Below are positions 9,121 to 58,924 of a stretch of 64,000 nt of DNA, piece after piece. Origin of the DNA: Hypomesus transpacificus (lineage: Eukaryota > Chordata > Actinopteri > Osmeriformes > Osmeridae); the NCBI RefSeq assembly GCF_021917145.1, contig NC_061065.1, positions 12,335,412 to 12,399,411 of the forward strand, given 5' to 3'. Position 1 is the stretch's first letter. Every line of letters starts with the position of its first letter. A model generated the notes under the pieces. The model did no database searches. It saw nothing but the letters and a program-made list of their open reading frames with translations, and was not told the origin of the DNA. Position numbers and translations under genes: made by a program.

Positions 9121-12100
9121 TCACTCTTCAAGGCCCTTTTTGCCAGGCCCATCCCTGGTCTTGGCCTTCAGCTTGTTTACTTGGGATTCAGCAATATCTG
9201 CTCGCTCTTCAGCCTCTTCAAGCTCATGCTGAATTTTCCGGATCTTGGCCATGTTGGTGTTGGCCAGCTCCTCAGCCTCTTCAGTGGAGCGCTTGTAGGA
9301 CTTAACCTTCAGCTGCAGCTTGTCAATCAGGTCCTGGAGACGAGCCATGTTCTTGCGGTCCTCCTCTGTCTGGTAGGTAAGCTCCTTGATGCGCCGCTCA
9401 TACTTGCGCACCCCCTTGAAGGACTCTCCGCCCCTTTTCTGCTCTGCCTCTAGCTCATTCTCCAGCTCTCTGATGCGGCCTTCAAGCTTCTGAACCTGCT
9501 TTTTACCACCTTTCATGGCAATCTGCTCTGCCTCATCCAGCCGATGCTGAAGGTCTTTGATCGTTTGCTCCATGTTCTTCTTCATGCGTTCCAGATGGGC
9601 GCTGGTATCCTGCTCCTTCTTCAGTTCCTCAGCCATCATGGCAGCATCAGTGATAGCCTTCTTCGCTTTCTCCTCAGCATTGCGGTTCTCCTGAATGGCC
9701 TCCTCAACCTCACTCTGCAGGTGGAGAAGATCGGTCTCTTGCTTCTTCTTCTGGTTTATGAGGCTGGTATTCTGGGAGTGCAGGAGTTGCATGCGCTCTG
9801 TGGCATCAGTTAGTTCCTGCTCAGCCAGCTTGCGCCCACGTTCTGTCTGCTCGAGAACGGCCCGCACTTCCTCCAGCTCTGCCTGTGTCAGGTTGTGTCT
9901 GCGCTCCAGTAGAGCAATATTCTCCTTAAGGTCATCATTGCAATGCGTGACATCATCCAGCTGCAGCTGAGTGTCCTTCAAATAGGACTGGAAGCTCTTG
10001 AGCTGCTTTTGTGCGTCGGCCGCCTGCCGGTTAGATTGGCTAAGCTGAATCTCCATTTCATTGAGATCACCTTCCATCTTTTTCTTGACTCTCATGGCCT
10101 CGTTACGGCTTCTGGTCTCAGACTCGAGAGAGCTCTGCAGGGACTCTATCATCCGTTGATAGTTTTTCTTGGCCTGATCCATTTCCTCATCCTTCTCAGC
10201 CAACTTTCGTTCAAGATCTGCTTTAACTTGGTTGGATTCCATCTGTGCCCGAAGGATCTTGCTCTCCTCATGTTCCAATGAGCCCTCTGCCTCCTCCAGA
10301 GCTGACTGGAGCTCCGCTTTCTCTTGTTCTAGCTGTTTCCGCAACTTCTCCAATTCATGGGCACTTTTCCCCCCTTCTCCAAGCTGGTCGGTGAGATCAG
10401 AGATCTCTTCTTGCAGGTTCTTGTTTTCTCTTTTTGTTGTCTCAAGATGGTCCAGCGATTCCTCATAAGCATTCTTCAGTTTGAAGAGTTCGGTGCTTAG
10501 AGATCGAGCCTCCTTTTGGGACGCCTCAAGTTCACACTGTGATTCTTCAAACTTCTGCTTCCATTCAGCCATGACTTTATCAAATACTCTCTGTTTCTTG
10601 TCCAGGGCTGCAGACGCTGCATTAGATCTCTCAAGGTCCAACATCAGGTCCTCAATCTCATTTTGGAGGCGATGCTTGGTCTTTTCAAGGGAGGAACACT
10701 TTGCATTCACAACTTCAACTGCCTCTTCTGCCTCTTGCAGCCTTTGAACCAGTTTCTTTTTAGCCTCTTCCAGCTCTTCAGTTCTCTGAATTCCATCAGT
10801 CTCATACTTTGCTCTCCATGTGGATACTTCTGTGTTTGCCTTGGACAGTGCCCTTTGGAGTTCTGCCTTTGCTTCTTGTTCCTCTTCAAACTGCTCTCTG
10901 AGCAGATCACAGTCATGGCGAGAAGACTGCACAGCATGGGCAAGTGCATTCTTTGCTTTGACCTCCTCTTCATGTTGTCTGCGCAGGTCCTCGAGTTGTT
11001 GGGTGTTGGAGCTTTTCCCCCTGGTGAGTTGAGAGATCAGACATTCCTTTTCCTCCAGTTGGCGTCCAAGTTCTCCATTTTCTGTAAGGAGCTTGGCCCT
11101 CTGTGTCGAGAAGTCATTGAGGGATCTTTGAGTCTCCTCATACTTGCACTTGTACTCATTCATGTTGTCTTCCATTGAACGGCACATCTTCTCCATGTTG
11201 GCTTTTGCTTTCACCACACTCTCCATGTTCGATGACATGTCATCCAACTCCAGCTTGAATTCACTCTTCTCTTTCTCAAGCTTCTGCTTGACACGCTGGA
11301 GATTGTCAAGTTGCTCTCCCAATTCAGCCACGCTGTCAGCATGCTTCTTCCTCAAGGATGCAGCAGTGGCCTCATGCTGCAGAGTGGACTCCTCCAAGTC
11401 CCTGCGAAGCTTGTGAAATTCAGCGTCCCTTTTCTTGTTGAGCTCTACCTGAGCAGATGTGGCTCCCCCTGCCTCTTCCAAACGCTCACTGATGTCCTCT
11501 AGCTCTCGGGAGAGATCAGACCTTTGCTTCTCCACTTTTGCTCGGGCTGCCCGCTCAGCATCCAACTCCTCCTCAAGCTCCTCTATACGTGCTTGGTTTT
11601 CCTTCAGCCTTTTTTGGAGTTGAACACCTGACACTATCTCATCCTCAAACTTTCCATTCAACTGATTGACTTCAAAGTCTTTCTTTTTGAGTTTTTCTTC
11701 CAGTTGCTGTTTGTCATTCTCAAAATCCATCACACTCTCTTGGGTTAGTTTCAGGTCTCCCTCAAGCTTCCTCTTTGAGCGCTCCAGTTCCATTCTGATT
11801 TTCTTTTCCTGTTCCAGAGAACCTTCCAGATCATCTACCTGTTGCTCAAGCTTAGCTTTTGCTTTGGTCAAAGTGTTGGCTTTGTCCTCTTCACTTTGAA
11901 GGTCATCGAGTGCCTGCTGATGAGCCTCCTGTAATGCCCTCTTCTCTTTCGTCAACTTCATTAAGTTTTCATCTTGGGATGCCATCTCTTCGGTGAGGTT
12001 TTTGACCTTGTTTTCTGTCGCATGTTTCTCTTTCTCCACTTTGGCTAATGTTAGCTCCAGGTCATCTATATCTTTCTTCAACTCTGAGCACTCATCCTCT

Positions 12101-14916
12101 AGCTTACGTTTCTTGGCTGTGAGGTCTGCAGTCATTTCCTCTTCGTCTTCCATTCGTTCTGTCATCTCTTTCACTTTGCCCTCCAGTTGTATCTTACTCT
12201 TAATAAGTTGTTCACAGCGCTCTTCAGCATCTGTTAAGGTATCCTGTTCAGACTGGACTTCTAGCAGCAGGTCATTCTTCTCTTGGAGAATCGTCACCAT
12301 TTTTTCCTCTAGCTCCTTCCGTCTCGCTTCAGATTTTTCCAGTGCCTCTTTAAGTTTTCCAAACTCATCTTTTATGTTTGCCATCTCTTTTTCAGATTCA
12401 GCACTCTTCAGCAGTGGTTTGATCTTGAAGAATAACATCATCCAGGGCCAGTTCTTAACCCCCAGGAAGGAACGAAGATTCCACTGGATGACCATTAGGG
12501 CATCCCTGCGCTCCACAAGCTTTTGGTACTCTGCCCTCATTAGCAGAGCCCTGGAGTTAGCCTGGATCATAGTGATGATGCGAGAAAGTTGCTCATCCCG
12601 CATCTCCTCAAGTGTACCCAGAAGACCTGCTTTGAAGAAGACCTTGGTGTTGCCAAACCTGTACTGGGTGTGGTCAATATCCAATGATCCCAGCAGCTTT
12701 TCAGCGCTCTTTTTACAGTCGATGAACTGACCCTCAGGAATGGCAGATGCATTCAAGATTCTGTATCTCTGTTTGAAATCGCCATACAGGACTCGATTTG
12801 GGAAGCCCTTTCTACAAATTCGAATACCCTCCAGCACACCATTACAGCGAAGCTGGTGCATCACCAAGCAGTTGTCCATGATGCCTGGTGTTTTACTCTC
12901 ATTTGGGATCAAACAACGCACAAAGTGTGGATGAGTGGTCTTCAGAGTGTTCATCAGCTTGTTCAGATTTTCCCTGTGCAACGCAGATACAGTCTGGAAG
13001 GAGGATCCCTTCTTTTTGGCTCCTTTCCCCTTGTCAGCCCCCGCTTCAGCTGCGTAGCTAGAGAAGAGCAGGCTTAAAAGCTTTATGGAAGATTTTTGGA
13101 AAAGCCCAACCACCGTTTCATTCAGTGGATCCTTATTCTTCACCAACCAGTTGGTTATGTTGTAATCAACAGTGCCAGCATAGTGGACCAGGGCGAAGTG
13201 TGCCTCTGCTTTCCCTTTTGCTGCACGTGGTTTCTCAAACATTCTGTTCTTGCCCAAATGATTATCATAGAGCTTAGCCTTGAAGGTCTGGTCGCTGGCC
13301 TTGGGAAACATACACTCTTCCTCCAGAATGGACATGATACCTAGTGGCTTTTCAATGAGATCAATGCAAGCTTGCAGATCCATCCCGAAGTCAATGAACT
13401 CCCAATCAATCCCCTCTTTCTTGTATTCCTCTTGCTCCAGAACAAACATGTGATGATTGAAAAACTGTTGCAGTCTCTCATTTGTGAAGTTGATGCAGAG
13501 TTGCTCAAAGGTGTTGAAGTCAAAGATCTCGAATCCAGCAATATCCAGCACTCCAATGAATTGCTGGCGATGCTGTTTTGTGTCAAGGGAGTGGTTTATT
13601 CTCACCACCATCCAGTTAAACATCTTCTCATACACTGACTTGGCCAATGCACCTAGAGAGTAGTAGACTTGATCTACACCCTGCCCTTTGGTGACATACT
13701 CATTGCCAACCTTGACCCTGGGATGGCAGAGTCCTTTCACAAGATCTGCAGAGTTCAGCCCCATTAGGTAAGCTGACTTGTCAGCCGCCTCAGTGCCGTC
13801 AGGCTCTGCCTGCTCCTCACGCTGCTTTTGCTTGAACTTCATGTTGCCAAAATGCATGATAGCTCCTGTCAACTTGTAGACCCCCATTTTCTCCTCTTGA
13901 GTAAAGCCAAGGATATCAAAGGCACTGTCAGTGGCCATCAACTCATCAGCATCATTGATAGATGCTACTGTTACCTCTCCTTGGGAGATGTACGAGTAGT
14001 CATATGGGTTGTTGGTAATCAGAAGCATGTCCAACAGCTCTGGCTTTTTATTGGACAAGATCTGAAAGAAGATATGGTAATTCCTTTCCGACTTGAGTTG
14101 GAAGGTGACACGTGACTTTTCCAAAAGATAAGTCTCTATGTCAGCTGAGGCCAGCTTGCCACTGGTTCCGAAGTGAATCCGGATAAATTTTCCAAATCGT
14201 GACGAGTTGTCATTCCTCAATGTTTTGGCATTACCAAAAGCCTCCAAGGCAGGGTTAGCCTGAATGATTTGATCCTCCAAGGTTCCCTTGCTGGGATCTC
14301 TCTTGGCTCCAGGAACTGCTGCAATGCTGGCCAAGTACTGAATAACTCTTTTGGTGTTGACAGTCTTTCCAGCACCGGATTCTCCGGTGATAAGAACAGA
14401 CTGGTTCTCCCTGTCAGTGAGCATGTACTGGTAGGCATTATCAGAGATGGAGAATATGTGAGGTGGAGCCTCCGTTCTCTTTTTACCTCTGTAGGCAACC
14501 ACCACTTCGGTGTCATAGACAGGGAGCCACTTGTAGGGGTTCACTGTCACACAGAAGAGCCCGGAATAGGTGTAGATCATCCATGCAGCATAACGCTCTT
14601 TGAGGTTAAACAGCACAGCAGGCTCATGGAGGAAGGTGAACATGGCCATGTCTTCGATTTTATCGAATTTCGGTGGGTTCTGGGGATGGACGTCGGATTC
14701 CTTGACTGTCACAGTTGTCCCGTCTTCTTTCTTCACTGTAGTTTTACCGCCCTCCTTGCTGACAATCTGCCCTTTGACATATTCCACCTTGTCATCAATG
14801 ACGAAGCACTCTATTTTGATATCAAAGGCCCTGGTCTGGGATTCAAGTCGCTCTTTGTCTGACTTTCTCAGGAAAGCAGCCGCCTTCCCAAACTCAGCCA
14901 TGAGAGCATCACCCAT
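9121..14916 (-). CDS. Sarcomeric (skeletal-type) myosin heavy chain, intronless
   Basis: Class II muscle myosin heavy chain: actin-activated ATPase motor and thick-filament rod. The coding region is one uninterrupted frame of 1931 codons, the usual length for sarcomeric MYH. Visible parts in order are: SH3-like N-terminus (to about 80); P-loop GESGAGKT at 178-185; switch regions NDNSSRFGK and [11 protein letters not shown]; a Lys/Gly-rich loop 2 ([12 protein letters not shown]); the relay and SH1 helix region ([30 protein letters not shown]); the lever arm with IQ-like segments; the hinge around [16 protein letters not shown]; then a heptad-rich coiled coil to the end, closing with [18 protein letters not shown]. 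The ATG at 14916 begins MGDALMAEF, the standard MYH start; an in-frame ATG 46 codons upstream is probably leader. Ordinary vertebrate MYH genes have dozens of introns, so this is probably an old retrocopy that stayed functional. The nearest paralogue cannot be named by eye. Confidence 0.95.
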
Positions 14917-15043
14917 TGTTGCCGGCGTAGGTCTACAGACAACAGAGAAAATAATCCGCTCAGGAACATGCAGACCTAAGATCTTGCTTCTGGGAACTCT
15001 GAAGGGTTCTGCAAAGATACTCACTGCTATCTGCTCTTTATAA
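14917..15043 (-). promoter_or_regulatory. Myosin leader with TATA box and possible 5'-UTR intron
   Basis: On the minus strand a TATA box (TTTATAAAG context, 15038-15043) lies about 120 nt before the ATG. Between them is GATTATTTTCTCTG followed by TTGTCTGTAG. This looks like a 3' splice acceptor ending at 14933, and it would leave a 16-nt leader (ACCTACGCCGGCAACA) on the ATG exon. Either the transcript begins about 30 nt after the TATA box and runs straight through, or a 5'-UTR intron ends at 14933. The sequence alone does not decide. Part of this leader is duplicated at 31477-31545. Confidence 0.5.
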
Positions 15044-15591
15044 AGGGATCCCACATCGCCAAATTAGGTGAAAGTTGGGAGGCATGACAGAATAGACCCC
15101 AAGACTGAGTACTGACACGGCAGCAGATTAGAGGGACCTTTAGGTGACAGTGCCCATTTTAGGAAAACTGACATTTCCCTGTTTATCTCCTCTCATCCCT
15201 CTCGATAGTGTCCATTACGATAGACATTCCAGACACCTCACTAGAATTACATGTGGAGTTTATTTGAATGCCTTAGCATTCTGTATCTTTCTCTACAATA
15301 TTTTCTAAATTATATTGAGAACTTGAATATAAGTAAATCTTTTTTTGTTTTAATGCATAGGGAATCTGAGGTTTTGAATTAAGGGTTTTACTGAATAGAC
15401 TCTGGTTGGCCTTATGCCATGGCTGCTATCAAAGAGACGACACTGACACCTTTCACAAAGCAGACTGTCTCAGCTCATCTCCACTTAGCCATGCCCCACA
15501 AATAGCACAGCATACAAAGGCCCTCTGCTATTTTCAGTAGAAGTTCCAGTAACTTAATGCTTTCTATGTCACATCATACATAAAGACATTT

Positions 15592-40438: not shown

Positions 40439-41131
40439 CGTACTAGTCACTATTTTGAAGTTACTAGTACTTATTCTTTAGTTACTAGTAACTATTGGAT
40501 TAGTTACTAGTATCTATTCCCGTTTTACTAGTAACTTTTCATTAGATACTACCTATTTTTTTGTTACTAGTAACTAATCCAATTCTTACTAGTATCTATT
40601 CCTGTTTTACTACAGTAGTAACCTTTTATTAGACACTATTACCTATTCTTTAGTTACTAGTAACTAATCCAATAGTTACTAGTATCTATTCCCGTTTTAC
40701 TAGCAACAAATTGCACAATTTTACAATTGTATTCTATGGGGCTCTTCTTTACAGATATCTACTATTTGTTTCCAACTATTATCTATTCCAATAGTTACTA
40801 GTATCTATTCCTGTTTACTTGTAACATTTCATTAGATACTAGTACCTATTTTTTAGTTACCAGTAACTAATCCAATTCTTCCTAGTATCTATTCCCATTT
40901 TACTAGTAACATTTTAAATTTTACTATCAAGTAGTAATTTTTACCCGTCATAAGCAACGACGAGTAAAAAATGCAATTCTTACTAGTAAGAATAATAATG
41001 GTACTAGTAACAATTGTAAAAGTTACTAGTAACTAAATAATAGTTACTAGTATGTAATTAAAAGTTACTAGTAAAATGGGAATAGATACTAGTAACTATT
41101 GGATTAGTTACTAGTAACTAAAGAATAGTTA
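40439..41131. repeat. Tandem and inverted TTACTAGTAA repeat block
   Basis: About 690 bp built from the palindromic core TTACTAGTAAC. In the left part, units of about 90 bp recur (for example from 40474, 40563 and 40654): core, AATCCAAT or its inverse ATTGGATT, core, ATCTATTCCCGTTTTACTAG. The right end (about 41060-41130) is the reverse complement of the left end (about 40470-40540), so the block is a foldback structure. A perfect-but-one hairpin (TTTTTACCCGTC / GACGAGTAAAAA) sits near 40937-40972. Nothing in it is coding. It begins about 375 bp upstream of the bub1b CDE/CHR site. Confidence 0.85.
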
Positions 41132-52834: not shown

Positions 52835-55800
52835 ATGACAGGTTTGTCTATTGGATTTGTTTTGGGATCCACTTTGTTGTTCAGTGCAGTTTTCCAAGTA
52901 AACGCACAAGCTGTCACGAATGGCGCAGCCTGCAATAAGAAATTCAAGACGGGCACAGAAACATTTGTACTAGACACACAAGACGCTGTTAATGCAGGAG
53001 CCACATTCATCTCGTCCCCAACTGTTACTCATGCCGACGATTGCGTGAGCGCGTGTTGTCAAATCCCCCAATGTAATTTGGCATTAATTGAAAATGGACA
53101 GGAGACGGGATCGGTTAAGACCTGCTTCCTATTCAACTGTCTATACCGGAACGAATACGTATGCAGATTTGTGAACAACGTTGGATTTACAAATTATATT
53201 CAGGAGACAGTTTATGAACAACACCTTGGAGGACGTGAAACTTCTGGTAAGTTAACAGAGACTGTGGGCCTATGGTGTGTGTATAGAAACAATCAATCCA
53301 GGTGTAACAGGCGTGCAAAACAGATTGTATTTTACTTTTAAATAATGAAATAACTTTGACGAATACACATTTTTCAATTATGAGATTTATAATATCTAGA
53401 AACCAAAACATTTCCAATATTAAAACATGTTTCCAGAGAAGGAATCCCCCATTGCCAACGCCGGCCTGGATATTGTGGTCCAGCCCAAAGAGTGGGTGTC
53501 ACTCAATGGGTTAGAGAGTAAAGCCAAGGATGGCAAGGTGATCTCCAAGTTCGAATGGAGCCTTCAGAAAGGGGACTCTTCTGTGGTTATACAAGTAAGA
53601 GCATCATACATGGTCATCATCATTTCCATCCATAGTGTCCTAAGCTGATGCTGTCACTGAATAATAAAACAACTAAGGAATTGTTGTCAGTGCCCTTTGA
53701 ATGTAACCAGCATCAGTCTAAACTAAAATGATTGTCAATATCTGTATACTAAGTTATATGTTACATACTTCTGTTAATTCTCAGAAAACCGCCCTCCCTG
53801 ATCAAGTAGAGCTGTCTGACCTTAAGCCAGGTGTGTATGAGTTCCAACTGAAAGTCACCGACTCCAAAGGCCTATCTGACACAGCCCAGGTCACCGTCCT
53901 CGTCCTTACTCCTGAACAGTCTGATCGTGAGTACCTGGTTATGGGAAATGCAGTCAAATGACATTTCTGTGTGAAAACTTGAAGTACAGATTCTGTTTTT
54001 AATAGTCCTACTGGCTTTTTGTGGAAGATTATTATCTAGTGCATGGGAATAAATAGTCCTGTGGAAATGTATTCTGTTTAAATATCACTTGCCTGCCTTC
54101 TCTACGTTTTGGTTTTGTAAATTAAGGTCAACATTCCTCTTTTAGCCTAACTACACACATACACACCCACACAAAAGCCTATGCTGTTGCTGACGTTTGA
54201 GTATTGTATTTCACCTTAAAGTCACCTTAGAAATAGTATTGCTAGCAGATGAAAAGAGCAGGTTTTTCTCAAACTCCTCATAGCTAATCAAAATTGTTAT
54301 ATTTAAGTGAGATTTTTGAGATGCCACATGAGAGTACTCAAACAACAAGTCATAAATGTGACTGTTCCCCCATCAAACCTCAGAACAGGTTTGGTGTGAT
54401 TCAGAGTTGAGTCACATCAAGGAGTTTCACACGGTTGAGCAAAACACACATTGTCACACACACACAGTTTATACACTAAGGTGTCTGGGCTGGTTTTTAC
54501 CAGCTTTTACCAACCATCAACCACCTAGTGAGAGAGAGGAGTGGAAAAATGGGTTGTCCTTCCAAATCATGTTTTGATGTTAGGAGAGGGGTCAATGAAG
54601 ACTTTTTGAAATGGAAACAAAACGTAATTCATGAGTGACTTCAAATAAATGTGGGGCAAGACACTGGCTACAGATTAAGTAAAACATTTAAAACCAGGTT
54701 AAATTACATTGTTGGGCAGAATAATTGGACTTAAGGTAATGTATTCACGTGAATGGCAACAATTAGCTGTAGACTATAACAAGGCTACGAAAATGTATGG
54801 ATCATCACACTAGCCTTGTTTTAGTTCTTAATCCCCAAAGAAACATACATTTCCAGAAGATTCAGTGATATTGGCAGCAGTTTAAGCAACCAGCAAACTC
54901 AACAATCAAAATGTGGGTTATCAACCAACAAAAGAACATGGAACCTTGTCTGGACTGTTGGCAGTGTTGGCTAATTAGGTGTATTATGTAAACCTGTATA
55001 CATAGGTAAACATGTATGCAGTAGTTTATCTGGGATTATTCAGTTTCTTACTCAGGAGTAGGACATTTTTCTACATCCCAAAGTGTACCTGTTGAATTGT
55101 ACCTGAGGAGGACAGACTATAATGTAAGAATTCATTGTGGTAAGGCTATTGGCAGAAATGTATTGTCATCTACAGCATCTTTTTGTGCCCAATGTACCAT
55201 GACAGACCGTTGAAGCCACTTTTTGTTAATTAGTCTTCTTTACTTTTAATTTCAAATGCAACAGCCTTAGTGGTAGCCTGGTCCTAACCAGACCCTCGTA
55301 CATTTCATTTGTACAGAGGGTCTGGGATCGCTTCATTGGCAAGCGTTAACTTCCTTGAAGGCAGGTACTCTGTTGAAGTTTAAAACTATTGGCTCTGCCC
55401 AGAGCGACTCTGATCTGCCATAACCAATCGCTAGCGTTCGCCTTAGCCAACCAGCCTTCACCACAGAGCTAGCTGCCGTAGCTGGAAAATCAAACTTTTC
55501 CCGAACCCCTACAAAAACATTGTTTCTGAAAACCGATTGATGCACTGAAATCCCAGACCTAGTTCAGAAGCAAAATCTAAATTGAGCGGAAGTACGTAGG
55601 AGGGTAGAAACAGGCTACCTTAGTGGCACTTTGGATATTAAATGCATATAAGCTATCATCTTCCCTCAGCCAGGTTATGCTAGGCCTAAACATGTGCTTG
55701 TGCCCTTCCTAATTTAATTCACAGCTTTCTTTTTGTAACTGGTTTCTTTAGAAGGGAGTATCACATCTGCACAAGCAATACACCTACACTAGTGCCACGG

Positions 55801-58800
55801 AGAAAATGCACACTACAGTGATCATCTTCAAAATCATTCCATTGACAACGCATAAGATGACTATGGGTTTATGGTTATGGGTTTAAAGGGTGCTTTGAAC
55901 ACCTGGTAAACAGTATCTACGGTATTGTATTTAACTGCCTGCTTGGTTTTATAGCCTTATGGTAGGCCTACATAAAAAAATCCATCACCTCTATGGTGGA
56001 ACTTGGAATCAACATGCTGTACTTTAAATGGAGAGTCACGTGCATCAACATTTAAAAAATTTCTAATGGACTGTGTTATGTCACCACATGTTGCGGATAA
56101 AAATCCCAATGCAACCTATTTCCAAAGTCTGGTGTTGTAAAAAGCTGTGAGAGTACAGAGGCTTATTTTTCAACGGTTGTTACAGAACATCTGGAATGAA
56201 TGCATCTTAAGTGTGTAAATAAGAATGTGAAAGACTCCTCACCCATGGTAGTCTCTGACCCACAGTAGAGCTCTAACTGTCCTGACTGTTATCCTGTCAC
56301 CATCCAGATCAGTCTGGCTCTATCTGTCCTGACTGTTATCCTGTCACCATCCAGATCACTGTCTGGCTCTAACTGTCCTGACTGTTATCCTGTCACCATC
56401 CAGATCACTGTCTGGCTCTAACTGTCCTGACTGTTATCCTGTCACCATCCAGATCACTGTCTGGCTCTAACTGTCCTGACTGTTATCCTGTCACCATCCA
56501 GATCACTGTCTGGCTCTATCTGTCCTGACTGTTATCCTGTCACCATCCAGATCACTGTCTGGCTCTAACTGTCCTGACTGTTATCCTGTCACCATACAGA
56601 TCACTGTCTGGCTCTAACTGTCCTGACTGTTATCCTGTCACCATCCAGATCACTGTCTGGCTCTAACTGTCCTGACTGTTATCCTGTCACCATCCAGATC
56701 ACTGTCTGGCTCTAACTGTCCTGACTGTTATCCTGTCACCATCCAGATCACTGTCTGGCTCTAACTGTCCTGACTGTTATCCTGTCACCATCCAGATCAC
56801 TGTCTGGCTCTAACTGTCCTGACTGTTATCCTGTCACCATCCAGATCACTGTCTGGCTCTACCTGTCTTGACTGTTATCCTGTCACCATCCAGATCACTG
56901 TCTGGTCCCCAAAAAGGTTGGGCCCTGCCGGGGCTCCTTCCCCCGCTGGCACTACAACGCTGCATCCGAGGAGTGTGAGGAGTTCACCTACGGAGGCTGC
57001 AGGGAAAACCACAACAACTACATCAGTGAGCTGGAATGCACCGACGCCTGCAAGGGTGTGACAGGTACAATGAGCCGCTGGTCGTGTCGCAACTCTGGTA
57101 TAGCGGGAACACACATCCAACATTAAGGTGGATCCTTGTTATTGGAAGTTTTTATCCATGTTTGTGTCCTGCTGCCACAGTAAATCATTGTATAAATGTA
57201 TTTATTTTTTATCAGCAGATGCCACGGGAAGAATTGGTCCCCTTCCAACAGAAGGTATAACTAATTATCATGTATCATCAACAGTACTTATTGCATTATT
57301 CAGTTTTAGACATCTTCAAGTAACCGATCATGTAAGTATTTTTCTTTCTGTCCTCTCTGTCTCTGTGGGTGGGTGGGATTTAAGTTGAGGTGTGTGGAGT
57401 CCCCTGTAAGCCTTGGCAGTTTGTTTGTAACAGCGGCTGCTGTCTGAGCAAAGCCCTAGAATGTGACGCTGTGGCACACTGCACAGATGGTTCGGACGAG
57501 GCATCCTGTTACAGACGTAAGCTTTCAAACGTTTCACTCATTCGTACTCTCAATGTTTTACATTAGCATTTTAGAGTAATTGTGTTTACAGTTTCTCCAT
57601 TGGCATTATAAATGTACCGCATAAACCAGTTACAATTCCAAAGTAACATTTGTACATCAATTTCATGTTTGTTCCGCCAGTCAATGAAACCTTCTCTCGT
57701 CTTTTGAACGTTGATGTGGATCACAAAAGAGGTGGGTTGAAGTCCTTGAGCAGCCATTGTTGTACTTCCTCATACTGTTCAGATGTTTTGTTGATATTTC
57801 TGTACAAGAAGGATTCACTTTATTTACAACGTTTTTGCACTAGATGACAATGTGCCTCAGAAGGCTGACAACCTATGTTGGTGACATAACAAATAGTACC
57901 ACTTACCTTTCTTAAACCCCCTTTCTGCAGTACGTTGCACTGAACCCCCCAAGACAGGCCCTTGCCGTGCGAGCCACACCCGCTGGTACTATGACCCCCT
58001 CAACAGAAAATGCTATCGCTTCACGTTTGGTGGTTGCGAGGGCAATGAGAACAACTTTGAGCAGGAGGACACCTGTTCCTCTACCTGCGATGGTGTGACT
58101 GGTACGGGCATTTCAGATAACTTATCTTCTGCGTGTGATATATTTTGTCAGAGTTGAGAATTCTTGATTACAGACTGATATTTGACATTTCAAACTCTTA
58201 TTCTAATTGCAAGAAGGACAGTGCTTTATCAGGTTCATTTGAGCTTGTAGGCAGAGAATAAAATCTTCTGGCTACACTTTTTGTTGCTTCAACAGGTACT
58301 CTGATTTCAAAGAAATAAACTAGCATTTTAGGACCTTCACCTGCACAATTAACTATCCCACCCCACATCCTCTGAAAGGCAAGTCTTATCTACCAACACC
58401 CATCTTTGCTTGCTGCTAATAGATATGATGTCTCTTTCTCTGTACAGAAAAACATGTGTTTGCTAGGGGAATGTTTGAATACCAAGAGGATGAAGGAACT
58501 GAATCAGGTAATATATTTTTGTTAATAAATACATTTCAAAATTACTTTTTTGGGGGGGTGGGGGGGAGTTGCTAAATCGTTGTGTATTTCTTATGGGTAT
58601 TTGTAACTTTCAAACTTTGTGTTACCAACTCAATACACAAATGTAACATTTCTATTTGAATAGGCTATATGATTTACTATCAAATCTTTGGCCAAATGCT
58701 AGCTAGAAAACGTATTCCATTTTACGTATTGCATCTTATTTCCCCCAGCCTCTATCGCTATAGCAATTTTGCTAGCACTAGCCATTTTGGCTGTGCTTGC

Positions 58801-58924
58801 TGTCTTGGGCTACTGCTTTCTTAAGAAAAGGAAGGACCGGACACAGCACCAGCCAGTGACGACCCATGTCCCCTTTGAGGACAGAGACACTATGGTGTAC
58901 AACAGTACCACCAAGCCTGTCTGA
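52835..58924 (+). CDS. spint1: Kunitz-type protease inhibitor 1 (HAI-1)
   Basis: Membrane-bound inhibitor of HGF activator, matriptase and related serine proteases in epithelia. Coding exons: 52835-53246, 53437-53594, 53785-53926, 56894-57064, 57216-57254 (or from 57219), 57385-57516, 57681-57731, 57931-58101, 58448-58507, 58749-58924; phases agree, 503 aa. Order: signal peptide (about 1-24, VNA/QA); MANSC domain with its cysteines (about 30-130); PKD-like domain (about 140-235); Kunitz 1 (238-293; GPCRGSFPRW, P1 Arg); LDL-receptor class A (about 310-350; CTDGSDEASC); Kunitz 2 (about 368-424; GPCRASHTRW, P1 Arg); membrane helix (about 446-467); short tail ending MVYNSTTKPV, like the human VYNHTTRPL end. 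Domain order and length equal human HAI-1. The frame begins six bases earlier with TTG; I chose the first ATG. The 3' splice site of the Kunitz 1 exon is the last unit of a 13-copy minisatellite. Confidence 0.94.
55274..55617. mobile_element. Non-autonomous DNA transposon (MITE) in spint1 intron 3
   Basis: A 344-bp element flanked by identical 9-bp direct repeats CCTTAGTGG (55265-55273 and 55618-55626). It has imperfect inverted ends TAGCCTGGTCCTAACC / TAGCCTGTTTCTACCC (13 of 16 bases). A second inverted pair, CCAGACCCTC ... GAGGGTCTGG, lies just inside the left end. It has no transposase frame. The 9-bp target duplication suits a Mutator-like element; if one base is shared by chance, 8 bp would suit hAT. 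Confidence 0.8.
56272..56905 (+). repeat. 49-bp minisatellite carrying repeated 3' splice sites
   Basis: Thirteen units of 49 bp (the first is two bases shorter), each containing GCTCTAACTGTCCTGACTG, TTATCCTGTCACCATCCAG and ATCACTGTCTGG. The last unit is the real intron 3 acceptor of spint1 (AG at 56892-56893) plus the first 12 exon bases. Units are almost identical: the seventh has CCATACAG, two have CTATCTG, and the twelfth has ACCTGTCTTG. Confidence 0.95.

Follow-up and report, generated by a model that had tools for sequence, protein, structure and literature searches.

A minisatellite made of 13 copies of an exon's own 3′ splice site precedes the Kunitz-1 exon of spint1 in Hypomesus transpacificus

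Minisatellites are built of units of roughly 10-100 bp. Introns derived from tandem arrays were reportedly the subject of work by Zhuo in 2007, and Reed and Maniatis are said to have used duplicated β-globin 3′ splice-site constructs in 1986. Among the systems that come closest to the locus described here, the VNTR in intron 18 of the human ABCA7 gene, composed of 25-bp units, starts at the exon's own splice site and repeats that site in its units; use of a site shifted by one unit leads to a frameshift and a premature stop, and the array extends from the true site into the intron (PMC5954066). In the potato RdRp gene, the duplicated piece, an intron end (branch site, pyrimidine tract and AG) together with an exon start, was added once, and a cryptic GTAAG supplied by the exon enabled a new intron (PMC4974935). 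Human paralogs contain exon-intron boundary variable internal tandem repeats, that is, boundary minisatellites that alter splicing and that are retained or spliced out as novel introns (PMC2812944). Finally, β-globin constructs with tandem identical 3′ sites carried as little as 14 nt of exon behind the upstream copy (PMC5389562). Here we have examined a window of 64,000 nt (contig NC_061065.1, positions 12,335,412 to 12,399,411, forward strand) in which a minisatellite shares with these systems the repetition of an existing splice site, a position on the intronic side of that site, the joining of an intron end to an exon start, and a very short exon piece, 12 nt in this case, behind the upstream copies.

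The array lies within a gene of the forward strand for which we obtained a coding model of 10 exons and 497 aa (52835 to 58924 of the window). The model has a 498-codon frame (497 aa plus stop) with GT-AG introns and no internal stop. Pfam domains follow the order MANEC, PKD, Kunitz 1, LDLa and Kunitz 2, and the C-terminal part contains a hydrophobic, membrane-like segment (judged by eye) followed by a short tail. The protein aligned over residues 28-425, with 348 bits, to PDB 5h7v, human Kunitz-type protease inhibitor 1. Because of this domain order and of the similarity to HAI-1, the gene is, on sequence grounds, spint1 (HAI-1). Exon 3 (53785 to 53926) encodes the end of the PKD-like domain according to the gene model and Pfam and finishes at the donor GATC/gtgagt, where the slash marks the splice boundary. 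Intron 3 occupies 53927 to 56893 and, at 2967 nt, is the longest of the nine introns in the model, the others ranging from 145 to 346 nt and intron 4 measuring 154 nt. Exon 4 (56894 to 57064, 171 nt, phase 1 at both ends) encodes Kunitz domain 1, as indicated by the gene model, the 5h7v alignment and Pfam (Kunitz_BPTI, 2.4e-19, for a query with one extra base at its start).

Several other features were noted in the window. Intron 3 also carries a transposon-like insert at 55272-55619 on the forward strand, with 9-nt inverted ends (GGTAGCCTG) and flanking TTAGT repeats; in an alternative parse, the ends are 7 nt and a 9-nt duplication, CCTTAGTGG, flanks them. TRF reported diverged tandem arrays at 40441-41131, with periods of about 21, 22, 43, 64 and 90 bp and TTACTAGTAACTATT-like units, and a second small minisatellite at 238-354 (38 bp × 3.1 copies). 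On the reverse strand, a single open frame of 1977 aa (9121-15054) contains complete myosin N-terminal, head and tail domains and appears to be an intronless muscle-type myosin heavy chain gene; the GTG start of the extended frame may lie upstream of the true ATG. Most vertebrate muscle-type myosin heavy chain genes have dozens of introns, and this one is possibly an old retrocopy.

The minisatellite was mapped by TRF at 56270-56905 of the forward strand, with a period of 49, 13.0 copies in this one assembly, 98% matches and a score of 1223, and its units are highly alike and arranged head to tail. The unit consists of 37 nt of intron end (CTCTAACTGTCCTGACTGTTATCCTGTCACCATCCAG) plus 12 nt of exon start (ATCACTGTCTGG), and the exon part of unit 13 is formed by the first 12 nt of exon 4. 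The original prediction that each unit copies the 3′ splice site of the exon itself was borne out by the unit table, which matches the real boundary, and its finer points were right for most units. A 49-bp unit accounts for 11 of the 12 spacings; the first measures 47 nt owing to a 2-nt deletion in the exon-like part of unit 1, and as a result the first 12 exon bases, which had been attributed to every unit, are present in 12 of the 13 (unit 1 has 10). The presence of both CTAAC and CTGAC in each unit does not hold as it was put forward: CTAAC is missing from three units, being replaced by CTATC in units 2 and 6 and by CTACC in unit 13, so that 10 of 13 have it, and CTGAC is missing from unit 13 alone, where TTGAC takes its place (12 of 13 have it).

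Identity at a lag of 49 was 0.99 over the best 500 nt of the array, whereas 200 mononucleotide shuffles of 53927-57064 reached no more than 0.33. A 31-nt unit core was matched 13 times in the window at ≤3 mismatches, every time within the array and never outside it, compared with a mean of 0.00 matches in 100 shuffles. An exact 34-nt match was absent from the viral and prokaryotic contigs of IMG/VR and GTDB, and megablast against a plasmid collection found no match; neither result is informative about animal relatives. The 37-nt intron parts of the 13 units exist in only 4 versions, 12 of them differing by 0 or 1 base from the commonest and unit 13 by 2. These figures bear on the possibility that the array is an assembly artefact, the real one having fewer units, just one unit or many more. 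Assembly errors are common in tandem arrays, and such a small number of versions could be expected from an error of this kind; however, the variants are scattered along the array (the deletion in unit 1, a T in units 2 and 6, an A in unit 7, a C and a T in unit 13), unlike the simple stutter of one read, and we regard an artefact as very unlikely. Variation in copy number between individuals appears plausible.

The earlier claim that only the last unit leads into the real exon, with 12 acceptors upstream of it, agreed with the unit table, the gene model and the HAI-1 alignment. The AG of the 13th acceptor, contained in the intron part of unit 13 (56857 to 56893), ends at 56893, and those of the 12 decoy units (56270 to 56856) end at 56307, 56354, 56403, 56452, 56501, 56550, 56599, 56648, 56697, 56746, 56795 and 56844. 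The exon 3 donor could pair with any of the 13, yet just one of them, the last, gives an open frame from exon 3 to the end of exon 4, and the 5h7v alignment runs without a gap over the exon 3/4 junction formed with it. For these two reasons we take the 13th acceptor as the real one: judged by open frame and homology, it is the acceptor that yields the homologous protein.

Each of the 12 decoys is followed by a premature stop. Most decoy choices had been expected to shift the frame, which is correct but understates the outcome, since the three decoys that keep it (4, 7 and 10, adding 441, 294 and 147 nt) run into a stop inside the array. Decoys 1-10 all stop in the array at branch-point-like motifs, the unit frame CTC TAA CTG TCC TGA showing how these motifs supply the ten array stops; the codon is TAA for decoys 1, 2 and 4-9 and TGA for decoys 3 and 10, where CTAAC is replaced. 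With decoys 11 and 12, exon 4 is read out of frame and translation would end at a TGA located 3 and 86 nt, respectively, before the end of the exon. Exon 4, of 171 nt when the real site is used, would be 220, 269, 318 and up to 757 nt long with decoys 12 to 1. It is an established rule that a premature stop with exons downstream of it leads to nonsense-mediated decay, and such decay would be expected for the decoy products because six exons come after exon 4. None of the 12 decoys has lost its AG, which probably says little about selection, given the few changes overall.

In core motifs, almost all decoys are as good as the real site or better. The pyrimidine fraction of the 20 nt before the AG is 0.75 in 12 of the 13 units and 0.70 in unit 7, and the acceptor score, calculated with a simple, approximate matrix, is 6.24 in 12 units including the real site and 5.84 in unit 7. 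A value of 6.24 is also the median of the nine spint1 acceptors. Of the 175 AGs scored in 53950-57064, 8 that lie outside the array exceed the array acceptors, so the matrix discriminates poorly. As to the branch-point-like motifs, CTGAC is present in 12 of 12 decoys and CTAAC in 10 of 12, while the real site has only TTGAC; the two sites at which unit 13 departs from the commonest version both fall in these motifs (CTACC and TTGAC). Two scores near the array and in the gene model are worth recording separately. An acceptor-like sequence, CTGACCCACAG/TAG, immediately 5′ of the array (56266 being the first position past the AG), reaches 7.34 versus 6.24, and the acceptor of exon 6 at 57400 (gtgtgtggag/TCCCCT), picked by reading frame and LDLa homology, has a pyrimidine fraction of 0.40 and a score of -6.41, indicating a possibly misplaced boundary or a weak site. 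A better acceptor score at the real site was ruled out as the basis of the choice, its 6.24 being that of 11 of the 12 decoys. Since the local signals we measured do not favour the real site, the choice is probably set downstream.

The array could alternatively behave as a leaky cluster in which a number of decoys, chiefly the ones closest to the exon, serve to an appreciable extent as ordinary alternative 3′ splice sites. That 11 of the 12 decoys have core signals at least as good as those at the real acceptor would be compatible with such use, and in a human survey the upstream one of competing 3′ sites was preferred overall when they were separated by 20 nt or more (Carranza et al., PMC9225289). 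Likewise, frameshifting isoforms of ABCA7 (exon 18 cryptic acceptor and one-unit retention) reach 14 ± 6 and 2 ± 1% (PMC5954066). In contrast, two-copy globin constructs with duplicated 3′ sites were spliced exclusively, although inefficiently, to the distal site (PMC5389562), and with a premature stop in 12 of 12 products heavy use of the decoys would cost functional protein. Appreciable use seems improbable to us, although low-level use of some decoys is possible.

Three further readings were considered. Recursive splicing at ratchet points needs an acceptor directly followed by a donor (AG/GT), and it was rejected because all 13 acceptors read AG/ATCA and none AG/GT. New introns or micro-exons are unlikely to be generated from the units because the array has no good donor: the best GT donor in 56251-56893 has 4 of 9 consensus bases, whereas the nine donors of the model have 6-8 (the scoring covered GT donors), and the duplicated stretch thus does not hold the usable donor and acceptor that intron gain calls for. 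The third reading was masking of the decoys by RNA structure. A hairpin of 6 bp and -5.7 kcal/mol, CCAGAUCACUGUCUGG, was predicted in silico to straddle the acceptor (56890 to 56905 in unit 13), identical in most units and reduced to 5 bp in units 1 and 7. Masking was discarded, as the AG is predicted to be paired in every one of the 13 units, that of the real acceptor among them (unpaired probability 0.02-0.12). It is still predicted to be paired in a one-unit version (0.04), and so is the AG of the exon 3 acceptor (0.02), the other seven acceptors showing values of 0.25-0.77. The region 56240-57064 folded no better than shuffled sequences (z 0.74; 17 of 20 shuffles as good).

Downstream of the decoys, exon 4 contains 2 GARGAR hexamers, 6 GAG, 2 GAA and 6 purine runs ≥5, and the 587-nt decoy array contains none of the four; this absence is in effect one observation because one 49-nt sequence is repeated. 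The enhancer-like motifs RGAAG and TGAAG are absent from exon 4 and array alike. G+C content rises from 0.393 in the intron to 0.489 in the array and 0.591 in exon 4. The lengths of introns 3 and 4 place exon 4 in the LS class (long upstream, short downstream intron), whose members showed exon-defined behaviour at 3′ sites (147 events), and the preference for the upstream site was significantly lowered under exon definition (PMC9225289). At the same time, as the downstream intron is short, recognition of exon 4 need not occur purely across the exon. In the globin constructs, the distal site was chosen regardless of the length of exon behind the first copy (14, 55 or 205 nt), and earlier reports of an influence of exon length are acknowledged in the same paper (PMC5389562); the constructs thus support distal choice but not specifically a role of the complete exon.

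Taking these data together, we lean towards the view that the minisatellite arose by tandem duplication over the intron/exon boundary and is tolerated through exon definition favouring the complete-exon copy, an account that we hold to be probable, if well short of certain. A 49-nt stretch spanning the boundary between intron 3 and exon 4 would have been duplicated in tandem to give 13 copies, an origin that is supported by the unit being an exact 37 + 12 nt copy of the real boundary. Divergent end units together with uniform inner units are the mark of an array homogenised by slippage or unequal exchange, and this array has uniform inner units flanked by divergent ones (the deletion in unit 1, two differences in unit 13). 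The upstream copies would offer only their 12 exon nt (10 in unit 1), and the 13th acceptor alone would adjoin the complete Kunitz-1 exon. Recognition of exon 4 would proceed by exon definition, in which its purine-rich stretches and the 5′ splice site at its end favour the closest acceptor, the 13th; the other 12, which no exon follows, would for the most part be bypassed. Occasional use of a decoy, most likely decoy 12 or decoy 11 (giving an exon of 220 or 269 nt), would lead to a premature stop and nonsense-mediated decay. By analogy, likeness to the two-copy globin constructs supports the view that the decoys are passed over, and it predicts slower splicing. In another duplicated substrate, both 3′ sites were occupied at once by U2AF/U2 and splicing was poor, and a competitor oligo that lowered double occupancy brought a several-fold gain (PMC5389562); by analogy, several U2AF/U2 complexes sitting on the array at once may slow the splicing of intron 3.

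Inhibition by double occupancy would also suit a copy-number rheostat, in which the number of decoys sets the rate of intron 3 removal and the diversion to decay, so that array length tunes the output of spint1 and varies between individuals, with consequences for epithelia. All 12 decoys are poison acceptors by sequence, and in ABCA7 a longer VNTR is associated with lower expression and with more skipping of exon 19 (PMC5954066). Furthermore, zebrafish mutants of hai1a, a possible counterpart of this gene, show inflammation and epidermal defects (PMC8291973), so that by analogy the dose could matter. A neutral array would nevertheless predict an identical sequence, and the one-unit retention isoform of ABCA7 does not change with VNTR size (PMC5954066); we consider such tuning unlikely. 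The proposal that a hypervariable poison-acceptor array dims spint1 in a length-dependent way, with every further unit serving as a U2AF/U2 landing site that would delay intron 3 removal or divert RNA to decay and thereby create heritable, fast-mutating variation in an epithelial protease inhibitor, is one to which we give quite a low probability. Returning to duplication tolerated through exon definition, choice among equally good 3′ sites has so far been studied with two-copy constructs, and spint1 supplies 13 natural copies. In 11 of the 12 decoys the local signals that we measured match or surpass those at the real acceptor, which could allow the choice to be assigned purely to position and the downstream exon; and because the decoys all break the frame or bear stops and arrays are prone to change in length, the locus can be used to test neutrality versus a dose cost.

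Compared with the known systems, the spint1 array shows the sequence features of a splice-site minisatellite of the ABCA7 kind: an AG is present in 13 of 13 units, preceded by a pyrimidine fraction of 0.70-0.75, and the array terminates 12 nt inside exon 4, at the authentic site. The ABCA7 array concerns the donor (5′) site at exon 18 and the spint1 array an acceptor, and the spint1 unit, unlike that of ABCA7, brings together branch-point-like motifs, a pyrimidine tract, the AG and exon bases. For ABCA7, length variation and RNA effects have been measured (PMC5954066). The potato RdRp duplication differs in its single extra copy and its cryptic donor (PMC4974935), spint1 having 12 extra copies and no good donor, and the repeats of human paralogs are not, in the available text, copies of one existing acceptor (PMC2812944). 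By analogy, the array resembles a natural 13-copy form of the 14-nt globin construct, although the latter is artificial, has two copies and was assayed in nuclear extract (PMC5389562) and the former has 13 copies in an animal. A literature search for natural acceptor arrays, mainly in freely available papers, gave no dozen-copy array of one existing acceptor among the matches listed. On sequence grounds, the spint1 array is a splice-site minisatellite that repeats an acceptor, with a dozen extra copies.
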